DNA from: a virus
IMG/VR virus record: IMGVR_UViG_3300032298_000817
Coordinates: 1-47,583 of that record
Reading direction: 5' to 3' (one strand)
Length of the DNA: 47,583 bases
The notes under the pieces are model-generated. The model was not told the origin of the DNA and made no database searches. It was given only the letters and a program-made list of their open reading frames with translations. This document shows, in pieces, positions 29,755 to 35,346 of the stretch; position 1 is the first letter of the stretch; each line of letters starts with the position of its first letter. Position numbers and translations under genes: made by a program.

Positions 29755-30795
29755 TTAATATTCTACTTCACATGCTTTCTGATAAATTTCCTGAAGGATT
29801 CCTTTGACTATTGTCTTATCAAATGAAACTTCGGAATCTTCAATATAACGATTCAAAATTGAAATAGTATTTTCTTCTTCATCAACTTCAAATTCTTCAT
29901 TTTCGGGAATACTAAAATTTTCTACAATTTTAAGATCCTGAACACCAGATGAATATAATTTATCGACAAATATTTCAAATGATTTTGGTTTAGTTTTTTT
30001 ACGAACAATTAATTTGACAAGTTTATTTTTATATTCTTCAGTATTGAAAGTTTGATATGGTGTATCTTCGTAATAGATGTTATAGAATAATTTATAAGGA
30101 TTGTTAATTGGAGTGTGCTCTAAAGTTTCAGTATCGAAAATATGAAATCCACGAACATCATTCACATCACTCCAGTACATTTCATAAGTATTACCAAGAT
30201 AGAAGATAGATCCATTATCAGAACGAGTGTGGTAATGACCAGAAAATACCTTTTGGAACTTTGAAAAAATATCCGGGTCCAGTCCATGATCCTCCATTAA
30301 TAAATTTTGATTAACACGAAAACCCTGAAGTTCCAAATGACCCATAGCAATCTTTGCTTTGGATTTCTGAATTACCTTCATAGTTTCATCATAATTTTCA
30401 CTACAAATCCAAGGAATAAATGTTATATCAATTCCCCCAACTTGAGTATTTGTTGGTGAACTATAAGTTTTAATATTTGGATAAGTTTTAAGAAGCAAAT
30501 CTGGAGAGTTTACATTGTTAGTATTCTTATAATAACAATCATGATTACCCACAATCATATGAGTTTCATATCCACGAAGAGGTTCAAAAACAACTCTCTT
30601 TGCCCATTCCAGACTTTGATAATCAATTGACTTACGACTATCGAAAGCATCACCCATATGAATCACAGTGGTCACTCCATGCTCCTCTAAGGCGGGGAAA
30701 AAGACATTTGCATAGAAGAGTTCGAAATAATCGTGAAGGTGCTTAGAACCCTTCCTAGCGCCAAAATGGCTGTCCGTAAAAATTCCGATTTTCAT
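29755..30795 (-). CDS. 47: Recombination endonuclease subunit gp47 (SbcD/Mre11-like)
   Basis: Metallophosphoesterase nuclease subunit paired with gp46. The 346-aa protein (T4: 339) shows the phosphoesterase motifs FTDSHFGARKG, HMGDAFDSRK, MIVGNHDCYYK, AMGHLELQG and VFSGHYHTRS in order. The C-terminal capping domain is complete. The start overlaps the stop of the HNH gene (ATGA), an arrangement in which a homing endonuclease has become translationally coupled to a core gene. Confidence 0.96.
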   Translation of the reverse strand: MKIGIFTDSHFGARKGSKHLHDYFELFYANVFFPALEEHGVTTVIHMGDAFDSRKSIDYQSLEWAKRVVFEPLRGYETHMIVGNHDCYYKNTNNVNSPDLLLKTYPNIKTYSSPTNTQVGGIDITFIPWICSENYDETMKVIQKSKAKIAMGHLELQGFRVNQNLLMEDHGLDPDIFSKFQKVFSGHYHTRSDNGSIFYLGNTYEMYWSDVNDVRGFHIFDTETLEHTPINNPYKLFYNIYYEDTPYQTFNTEEYKNKLVKLIVRKKTKPKSFEIFVDKLYSSGVQDLKIVENFSIPENEEFEVDEEENTISILNRYIEDSEVSFDKTIVKGILQEIYQKACEVEY

Positions 30796-31247
30796 AATAA
30801 TTTGTTCCCTTTACGGATGTTTTCAATAGCAGTCAAAATTTGCAAATTATCTGGGTGGTGCTTACCACCTTTTGAGATTGGATGAATGTGATCAACATGA
30901 TGAGCAATTCCAGTTTCTTCCGTGATCCTAGCACATTCTTGGTAGATAAGCAATATGCGTTGATGCTCTTCTAGTGTTAGGATTGGTGCTTCACCAAACT
31001 TCTTTGCCCTATACCTATATGTCTTATTATTAGATTTTTCTTTCGTTCTATAAGGTTTCATCAACTCTTCATTATTCAATTTTTCCAATCCTTTCTTTTT
31101 AAGGCAGGGAGCACAACTGGAAGTGGATACATACTTTTCATAACTACCACAATGTTTGCAAGCAACAGAACCTTCATAAGTTTTCTTACCTTCCTCTATT
31201 GCCTGTAGTCTATTCTGCCTTCCAATGTCGCTATATTGATTGGGCAT
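30792..31247 (-). CDS. HNH homing endonuclease, free-standing, between gp55 and gp47
   Basis: A 151-aa protein with an N-terminal zinc ribbon (C30-x2-C33 and C45-x2-C48), a basic linker (YRTKEKSNNKTYRYRAKKFG) and a C-terminal HNH motif: HHVDHIHPISKGGKHHPDNL (116-135) with Asn143 in IENIRKGNK. Free-standing endonucleases of this type spread by cutting phage relatives that lack them. The ATG at 31245-31247 has GGAG 8 nt upstream, inside the hairpin described at 31248-31291, which also contains a late promoter. Its end overlaps the gp47 start. Confidence 0.88.
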   Translation of the reverse strand: MPNQYSDIGRQNRLQAIEEGKKTYEGSVACKHCGSYEKYVSTSSCAPCLKKKGLEKLNNEELMKPYRTKEKSNNKTYRYRAKKFGEAPILTLEEHQRILLIYQECARITEETGIAHHVDHIHPISKGGKHHPDNLQILTAIENIRKGNKLL

Positions 31248-31291
31248 AATGCTCCGTAATGTTACAATTATTTATAACACTTTGGAGCATT
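31248..31291 (-). promoter_or_regulatory. RBS-sequestering hairpin with embedded late promoter before the HNH gene
   Basis: On the minus strand AATGCTCC (31284-31291) pairs with GGAGCATT (31248-31255). Inside, AGTGTTA pairs with TAACATT, giving an 8-bp plus 7-bp hairpin with a 10-nt loop. The 3' arm contains the Shine-Dalgarno GGAG of the HNH gene. The late motif TATAAATA (31269-31276) lies between the arms, so a late transcript would begin after the 5' arm and leave GGAG free, while read-through from gp55 would mask it. Known precedent: T4 I-TevI. Confidence 0.7.
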
Positions 31292-31293
31292 TT

Positions 31294-31815
31294 TCATCGG
31301 TTATTGTTTCTGTATTGAATGGCATCTTTCATGCTGTTATATTCACTATTGCCCCCAGAAAGCAAGTTGTCATCGATTACCATTACTTCATCAAATCCGG
31401 TTCTTTCGATGATCTTATTTTTAATTTCTAATTGTTTCTTCTCTTTTTGAATCCTTCTCAAAAATGCAAAGTGAATAATCTGAGTAAAATAAGCAAAGGG
31501 ATTTTGTGATCTTTCGGGATTAAAGTTATGAATATACTGAACACAATTTTCAATACCATCAGAAATCATATCATCCCTGAACATATAATTAACAAAGTTT
31601 GGTTTATATGAAAGATGAGTAGCGATCTTTAGAAAACATTCTCCAATATAATTTGGAATTCTGGGTTTACCTTCCCATTGCTGTTTATCTGTGGGATATT
31701 CACCATGTTTCTCATAATACCGATTCTTAGAATTCTTAATTTTCTCGGCATATATGACTAATGCTTCTAAGAACTCCTTATTATTGACATAGTGCTCAGA
31801 CTTTTTTCTTGACAT
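31294..31815 (-). CDS. 55: Late-transcription sigma factor (T4 gp55-like)
   Basis: Directs host RNA polymerase to late promoters (TATAAATA type) with the gp45 clamp. The 173-aa protein (T4: 185) contains the sigma2-like core: RDDMISDGIENCVQYIHNFN, then PERSQNPFAYFTQIIHFAFL and RRIQKEKKQLEIKNKI. It has its own upstream promoter with extended -10 at 31845-31873. The hairpin controlling the HNH gene starts 2 nt after its stop codon. Presence of gp55 agrees with the late motifs found before structural genes. Confidence 0.93.
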   Translation of the reverse strand: MSRKKSEHYVNNKEFLEALVIYAEKIKNSKNRYYEKHGEYPTDKQQWEGKPRIPNYIGECFLKIATHLSYKPNFVNYMFRDDMISDGIENCVQYIHNFNPERSQNPFAYFTQIIHFAFLRRIQKEKKQLEIKNKIIERTGFDEVMVIDDNLLSGGNSEYNSMKDAIQYRNNNR

Positions 31816-31879: not shown

Positions 31880-31908
31880 TTGACAAGACCTCAGAATCCT
31901 GTTATAAT
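31880..31908 (+). promoter_or_regulatory. Exact-consensus sigma70 promoter on the plus strand
   Basis: TTGACA (31880-31885), 17-nt spacer, TATAAT (31903-31908). All consensus bases are present with optimal spacing. It points right, into the 3' end of the 31937-32329 gene and on towards uvsW, both on the minus strand, so its product would be antisense RNA. No convincing plus-strand ORF with a ribosome site follows. Confidence 0.7.
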
Positions 31909-34851: not shown

Positions 34852-35346
34852 TTATAAGTATCTAAACCAAGGTTTTCTATTTGGTCTACTTTTATTTTCA
34901 TCCTTAGAGCAACTTCTTGAAATACTGGATCTTAAAATACCTAATTTTTTAGAAGCTTCTGTTGCGCTTTTATATACAATACCTGTCCTAGTGTCTATTA
35001 CTGGTTTGTTATTTGATATTCTGCTAGATTCTTTTACATGTTCTGGGCATGGTCTACCACTAGTTCCCCCATCCCCACCAAGAGTTGCATTGTATTTGGG
35101 ACTTAATCGATTAATCCAATATATTTCTCTACTTCCCATATCTTTATTTTCACATTCTTCTAAAATTTCCCATTCAAAATTTTCTTTTCCATATTTTTTT
35201 AAAGCATTAGGAAAAGGAACATTACACTTTTTATGTCTAGAATACCAAATATGGGAGTTAATTCTTTTATATAATTTATCATATGAGGTTCTACCAATAT
35301 AAAATTTTCCATTAATTTTATTTGTTGCCTTGTATATAAATGCCAT
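34852..35346 (-). CDS. GIY-YIG homing endonuclease with NUMOD-type C-terminus
   Basis: A 164-aa protein. The N-terminal catalytic domain shows the split motif FIYK...GKFYIGRT (residues 3-20, Arg19), a conserved basic helix (NALKKYGKENFEWEILEE) and the catalytic Glu74 in GSREIYWINRL, ending SPKYNATLGGDGG. The C-terminal part (GRPCPEHVKESSRISNNKPV) is NUMOD3-like, followed by a NUMOD1-like helix-turn-helix (YKSATEASKKLGILRSSISR). All key residues are present, so it may be active. It sits between the gp23 terminator and the tail-tube-like gene. A weak late-like motif (GTAAATAA near 35370) lies upstream. Confidence 0.9.
   Translation of the reverse strand: MAFIYKATNKINGKFYIGRTSYDKLYKRINSHIWYSRHKKCNVPFPNALKKYGKENFEWEILEECENKDMGSREIYWINRLSPKYNATLGGDGGTSGRPCPEHVKESSRISNNKPVIDTRTGIVYKSATEASKKLGILRSSISRSCSKDENKSRPNRKPWFRYL

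Follow-up and report, generated by a model that had tools for sequence, protein, structure and literature searches.

The gp55–gp47 Region of the Window

The window, a virus record analysed over its full 47,583 bases, is a fragment of a T4-like phage, and the records matching its gp55–gp47 region belong mostly to Synechococcus and Prochlorococcus phages. The gene order on the minus strand is UvsW, a small gene (PHROG label “methylamine utilization”), gp55, an HNH gene, gp47, a DUF3110 gene, and gp46. The identities assigned to gp55, the HNH gene, and gp47 in the initial annotation agree with the Pfam and PHROG matches (Table 1). The HNH protein begins with a zinc-binding CxxC/CxxC module followed by the HNH body, and the 3′ end of its gene overlaps the start of gp47. 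Only PF01844 and PF14279 were found in it by the Pfam scan, from which PF02945 (Endonuclease VII) was absent, whereas its best PHROG, phrog_1035, is annotated as endonuclease VII. A PDB sequence search with the protein gave no match, and a search with its alignment gave one weak match, to a Cas9 chain (E 0.0036). When compared with five relatives, the gene displayed a dN/dS of 0.05–0.11.

The 46 bases between the gp55 stop codon and the HNH start (31247) are almost entirely taken up by the element reported here. Every part of it had been described in the initial annotation and was found in place: a hairpin at 31248–31291 with GGAG in its 3′ arm, and a late promoter between the two arms. The hairpin had been called imperfect, and unpaired columns together with one G-U pair are indeed seen in the stem.

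Table 1. Coordinates of the features at the gp55–gp47 junction of the window.
Feature	Position	Strand	Basis or remark
gp55, gene for the late sigma factor, immediately upstream of the element	31294..31815	-	phrog_234 late sigma factor, E 3e-63
gp55 stop codon	31294-31296	-	
5′ arm, outer stem, pairs with 31248-31255	31284..31291	-	fold, covariation; not included in the late RNA as predicted
Late promoter TATAAATA between the arms	31269..31276	-	PMC2984593 gives NATAAATA as the late motif of cyanophages
Predicted late transcription start, 6 nt past TATAAATA	31263	-	predicted from T4 spacing
3′ arm containing GGAG	31248..31255	-	position and fold
GGAG ribosome site, 4 nt before ATG	31252-31255	-	
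HNH start codon ATG	31245-31247	-	
HNH nuclease gene, 151 aa	30792..31247	-	PF01844, 27.6 bits (cut-off 21.4)
gp47, directly downstream of the HNH gene	29755..30795	-	phrog_100, E 4e-118

Folded as the + strand, a 61-nt stretch spanning this region reaches −15.7 kcal/mol, whereas its shuffled versions average −7.22 (z −3.66), and the value is equalled by none of 200 shuffles. The predicted probability that GGAG is unpaired rises from 0.00 in the read-through RNA to 0.56 in the late RNA, and is unaffected by whether the start is assumed to lie 5, 6, 7, or 9 nt past the motif; a spacing of 6 nt from late promoter motif to start is the T4 value. There is no overall enrichment of TATAAATA in the window (7 present vs 5.9 expected). 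All 19 ATAAATA sites of the window lie on the coding strand, to which base skew may contribute, and the reversed-pattern control for this strand bias was uninformative because ATAAATA reads identically backwards. No terminator-like site and no credible Rfam family match were found near the hairpin.

Upstream of gp55 lies a sigma70-like site (31873–31845, minus strand, 9/12 matching positions), a candidate start for transcription that might read through into the HNH gene; such a site precedes gp55 in 131 of 141 distinct relatives, as against about 10% of shuffles. A separate observation concerns a perfect TTGACA-N17-TATAAT (12/12) at 31880–31908 on the plus strand, directed away from gp55 and antisense to the upstream small gene and UvsW. 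With one mismatch allowed per hexamer, a similar site is present in 95 of the 141 distinct relatives (about 10% in shuffled sequences), and the bases that follow it are similar in many of them, making the site a candidate for an antisense or small RNA. The window also contains a GIY-YIG gene (34852–35346, minus strand), around which ATAAATA is absent between 33818 and 38077; a relative of this gene in L120 (271–762) has TATAAATA 23 nt upstream.

Conservation and Covariation of the Hairpin

The comparison covered 80 loci related to the HNH protein and 80 gp55 loci. The main leader type, shared with the window and termed type A, is represented by 46 distinct 52-mers at 100 places (some contigs having been fetched twice), and the stem is present in nearly all. 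In 43 of the 46 distinct leaders, NATAAATA lies 20–23 nt before the ATG. With the start of the late RNA set 6 nt past the motif, the ribosome site was predicted to be more accessible in the late than in the read-through RNA in 42 of 43 type A leaders, the median unpaired probability of GGAG or GGTG being 0.57 and 0.0001, respectively.

Covariation was assessed in 34 of the 46 type A leaders, where 90.0% of the stem cells were paired, compared with 26.7–55.8% when the partners were slid. Cells changed on both sides numbered 32 against 10.6 in shuffled alignments, and the covariation score was 0.215 against 0.123, neither value being reached by any of 500 shuffles. No excess over shuffles was seen in the number of pairs changed on both sides (5 vs 4.3, reached by 189 of 500) or in the number of pair types (14 vs 12.9, reached by 133 of 500). 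GGTG replaces GGAG in some type A leaders with the stem retained, GCTCC/GGAGC alternating with GCACC/GGTGC, such that pairing is kept even where GGAG itself is lost.

How unusual such a stem is among late genes was gauged on 186 distinct late-promoter-led ORFs from the window and loci L001–L165, by pairing the stretch before the promoter with the stretch after it with significance set at p ≤ 0.01 relative to 200 shufflings of the 5′ stretch. An enclosing stem was significant at 47 of 54 HNH genes, compared with 5 of 132 other late-promoter genes (UvsW 3/65, GIY-YIG 1/12, EndoVII-like 1/7, and others 0/48, with the GIY-YIG and EndoVII-like labels assigned by our own motif rules and partly checked). 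The median stem energy was −21.2 kcal/mol for the HNH genes and −5.2 to −6.8 kcal/mol for the remaining classes. The notion that every cyanophage nuclease gene has such a hairpin is ruled out by the GIY-YIG and EndoVII-like counts at this threshold. A chance hairpin is likewise ruled out by the shuffled folds of the window, the covariation, and the rarity of the stem at other late-promoter genes, since the element is conserved among relatives. At UvsW, a different arrangement was noted in L107, L126, L132, and others, in which NATAAATA is followed by a small hairpin, CCCATA...TATGGG, upstream of the gene, which would fall inside the late leader itself.

Linkage to the HNH Gene and Patchy Distribution

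The HNH gene lies beside gp55, in the gp55–gp47 junction, at all 82 HNH loci with gp55 in reach, a set in which the window and three loci obtained through other searches are counted; in L020 and L085, gp47 is present and gp55 is absent from the locus. In 65 of 82 HNH-less loci, gp55 and gp47 overlap or are separated by at most 2 nt, hence there is no room for the hairpin and the element is absent together with the gene. The other 17 comprise four loci with a 53–55 nt spacer lacking the motif, one without gp47 in reach, four holding another nuclease gene, each with TATAAATA, and eight holding other inserts, none of which contains ATAAATA (0/8, sequences read by eye). In L043 and L044, an extra ORF separates gp55 from the HNH gene, and the element stays beside the latter. 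A scan of the virus collection for arms around TATAAATA added further contigs, some already in the set, and placed gp55 beside the leader in 41 of 41 loci with a type A leader, gp47 being present too in 39. The initial annotation had suggested comparing phages with and without the HNH gene to see whether the hairpin travels with it; the HNH-less loci and L043/L044 indicate that it does.

The distribution is patchy even among close relatives. On a gp55 tree of 136 rows, the presence of type A leaders cannot be explained with fewer than 27 changes, of which 11 are dictated by branches with good support, and four sets of identical gp55 proteins span more than one occupancy class. L034 and L098 are 94–100% identical at each 50-nt step over 500 nt on either side, yet the whole cassette differs between them; the one exception to this identity is the first 50 nt of gp47 (82%). 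This dip was considered as proof of homing by co-conversion and looks convincing in single pairs, but it also occurs between empty genomes (0.84 and 0.84 in empty/empty pairs, 0.78 and 0.76 in occupied/empty pairs), and for that reason it is not used as evidence. The HNH gene is under purifying selection, with a dN/dS of 0.05–0.18 in the nine pairs with computable dS of eleven tried. The patchy, apparently mobile distribution fits a free-standing homing endonuclease.

Other nucleases were observed beside gp47 or in the gp55–gp47 junction at L096 (homing-endonuclease-like), L146 (by resemblance), L006, L128, L367, L368, and L369, PF02945 being matched by those of L006 and L128. Of these nucleases, the ones in S-SRM01, L128, RB11-B, Rhizobium phage RHph_I1_18, and S-CREM2 are EndoVII-like. 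Judged from these loci, the junction is a recurrent insertion spot for nucleases. Nuclease genes located elsewhere may also have a hairpin of their own around TATAAATA, as seen at a GIY-YIG gene in L181 (5705–5740, minus strand), a locus that also encodes a gp46 relative, and at HNH-type homing endonuclease genes in L210 (225–262) and L234; these three came up through the search for the arms themselves.

A Second Leader and the Modularity of the Nuclease

A second leader, type B, has another N-terminus and another hairpin, and was found as 17 distinct 66-mers at 22 places. The nuclease behind it is up to 94% identical to that of the window from residue 12 onward, and the layout is likewise arm, TATAAATA, arm. 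In most type B leaders, GGAG lies 11–12 nt from the ATG and is predicted to be still paired in the late transcripts, so that the opening step is not reproduced in the folding model and the case for a switch is weaker there. L024 has a type B leader preceded by the 5′ portion of a type A leader, which looks like the replacement of one by the other. The element is lacking at the HNH genes of ACG-2014f (L001) and L047, and it is weak at those of L028, L029, and L071. S-SRM01 shows a related arrangement in which the A/U stem is weaker, and among the phage records searched the type A leader was found in no cultured phage. In ACG-2014f (L001, L002), whose isolates occur with and without the HNH gene, the spacer after gp55 seems by eye to encode a short zinc-module-like ORF with neither nuclease body nor late promoter.

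The leader and the zinc module are shared far more widely than the nuclease body. Between groups, the zinc module (CxxC...CxxC) is on average 83–95% identical and the bodies only 17–42%, and between the gp55 stop and roughly codon 65 the DNA of the window and L050 is 80–100% identical (100% for the most part), after which it diverges sharply. The type A leader carries three HNH body groups, and all three also occur behind type B leaders, at 19, 1, and 2 loci. The type A leader additionally carries an EndoVII-like body in L115/L168, L180, L203, L214, L233, and L085 and a second one in L206, these bodies being assigned by the DH.H motif and by alignment with the PF02945 members L006 and L128 rather than by a Pfam scan. 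With one leader serving three HNH and two EndoVII-like bodies, and HNH bodies found under two unrelated hairpins, it is plausible, if evenly poised, that the leader and the N-terminal zinc module constitute an exchangeable control-and-targeting cassette at the gp55–gp47 site. If so, it would be the insertion site rather than any one enzyme that selects for late timing, and that site would be targeted through the zinc module, a role that we infer for the module.

These bodies also bear on an alternative in which the window gene would encode a nuclease of phage recombination with late-switched expression, comparable to T4 gene 49 (Endonuclease VII), instead of a selfish homing endonuclease. Gene 49 is listed among the T4 genes with an inhibitory hairpin in PMC3014915, and the assignment of the window protein to phrog_1035, the EndoVII-like bodies on the same leader, and the purifying selection would all suit such a role. 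We nevertheless consider it unlikely, given that the window protein has the PF01844 HNH domain and lacks PF02945, that the gene is patchy among phages with identical gp55, that unrelated nucleases occupy the same site, and that a homing endonuclease with an EndoVII motif, F-CphI, is described from cyanophage S-PM2 in PMC6083498.

Proposed Mechanism

A late switch of the I-TevI type, as put forward in the initial annotation, is supported by the geometry of the leader and by compensatory changes in dozens of distinct relatives. That such a switch travels with the HNH gene is well supported by the comparison, because the geometry is conserved, the arms covary, the element is absent without the gene, and the stem is rare at other late-promoter genes; the type B leaders, unrelated in their arms yet of the same layout and ahead of nearly the same nuclease, count in its favour too. 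The window gene is thus probably a free-standing mobile HNH gene with its own 5′ late-switch element, which would be silent early and translated late. Inserted between gp55 and gp47, the mobile nuclease gene would bring its own 5′ control element with it. RNA reading through from gp55 would contain both arms, and the hairpin would hide GGAG and the start region, such that, as we propose, the nuclease would not be made early. Once gp55 is active as the late sigma factor, RNA polymerase would start at TATAAATA in the hairpin loop, and the resulting late RNA, beginning in or beside the 3′ arm and devoid of the 5′ arm, would be translated. What is read from the compared loci is how the element is built, that it is conserved and covaries, that it goes with the gene, and that the gene is patchily present; from this we infer the start site, the read-through RNA, translational silencing, late expression, and homing.

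The inverted repeat might instead act as DNA, namely as a palindromic operator at the late promoter bound by the nuclease or another protein, with the RNA stem being incidental. I-TevI represses its own late promoter via an overlapping operator according to PMC2988022, and the palindrome outlives the promoter in L021, L022, and L023 (upstream of the HNH gene) and in L085 (about 80–110), deletion derivatives that are natural test cases for the role of the promoter. The excess of G-U over A-C mismatches (27 vs 16) is modest and favours RNA over DNA pairing only weakly. The operator is nonetheless quite unlikely as the sole explanation: nearly the same nuclease stands under two unrelated arm sequences (window vs L011), the arm bases change jointly, the 3′ arm keeps a fixed distance from the ATG over the ribosome site, and the stem in L027 and L033 reaches over GGAGG/GAGGG right beside the ATG. 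Both mechanisms could coexist. Very unlikely is a role of the hairpin in mRNA processing or stability, through gp55 3′-end protection or an RNase cut and with no translational switch, for although the hairpin starts directly past the gp55 stop and RNase E-type processing is recorded for segB, segG, and mobE in PMC2988022, it is missing from HNH-less phages with the same gp55, it stays with the HNH gene despite the intervening ORF in L043/L044, and neither a terminator-like site nor an Rfam match lies nearby.

Relation to Known Switches

A late switch on a nuclease gene is not new in kind. The 2010 review (PMC2988022) describes for I-TevI a hairpin over the ribosome site that is relieved by a late promoter, with similar arrangements for I-TevII, I-TevIII, segB, and Aeh1 mobE, and PMC3014915 describes long transcripts that hide the ribosome site for T4 genes e, soc, and 49. 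As predicted for the window gene, the late RNAs of the three T4 intron endonucleases lack, according to PMC2988022, part of the sequence needed for the hairpin that covers the ribosome site. I-TevI, I-TevII, and I-TevIII are however intron-encoded and I-TevI is of the GIY-YIG type, whereas the gene here is a free-standing HNH gene, and the switch of I-TevI was shown by experiment, whereas the present one is proposed from sequence. T4 segB belongs to the GIY-YIG family and has an insertion site other than gp55–gp47. Free-standing like the window gene, this homing endonuclease gene has the same promoter and hairpin arrangement (PMC2988022). Aeh1 mobE (Gibb and Edgell 2007, 2009, as cited in the reference lists of PMC2988022 and PMC3014915) is described in these two reviews as another free-standing HNH gene, for a homing endonuclease, that lies among core genes and has a late promoter and a hairpin over the ribosome site. 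Its place is the nrd operon of a phage of Aeromonas, whereas the present genes, whose leaders and bodies are exchangeable, occupy the gp55–gp47 site of T4-like marine phages. The novelty hinted at in the initial annotation, a free-standing gene in place of the intron-encoded I-TevI, therefore does not hold, because segB and mobE are already free-standing with the same arrangement (PMC2988022), free-standing HNH genes included.

T4 genes e, soc, and 49 differ in being ordinary phage genes, the window HNH gene being an optional insertion. F-CphI of cyanophage S-PM2, a homing endonuclease that is likewise free-standing, resembles the EndoVII-like members in its C-terminal Endo VII motif, but it adjoins psbA and works with an intron, and the account in PMC6083498, as far as available, includes no such switch. 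No such element is named in the accessible parts of PMC3037559, PMC10448857, PMC2993671, PMC5931967, and PMC2864571, and among the open-licence papers that the searches listed, none dealt, to judge by title or abstract, with this gp55–gp47 cassette or with such a hairpin in cyanophage nuclease genes. What looks new is the spread of the switch in marine T4-like phages and the modularity of its leader and zinc module.

In the reviews, as far as they were available, the switch is described for a handful of nucleases of T4 and Aeromonas phages; here, the natural variants found in dozens of genomes of marine phages provide evolutionary evidence for the base pairing, for the position of the promoter, and for the association of the element with the gene. 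The reason for delaying the expression of homing endonucleases until late is treated as a partly open matter in PMC2988022. With one late leader common to different nucleases, and with natural relatives in which the promoter or the gene is missing, this question would become testable by comparison.
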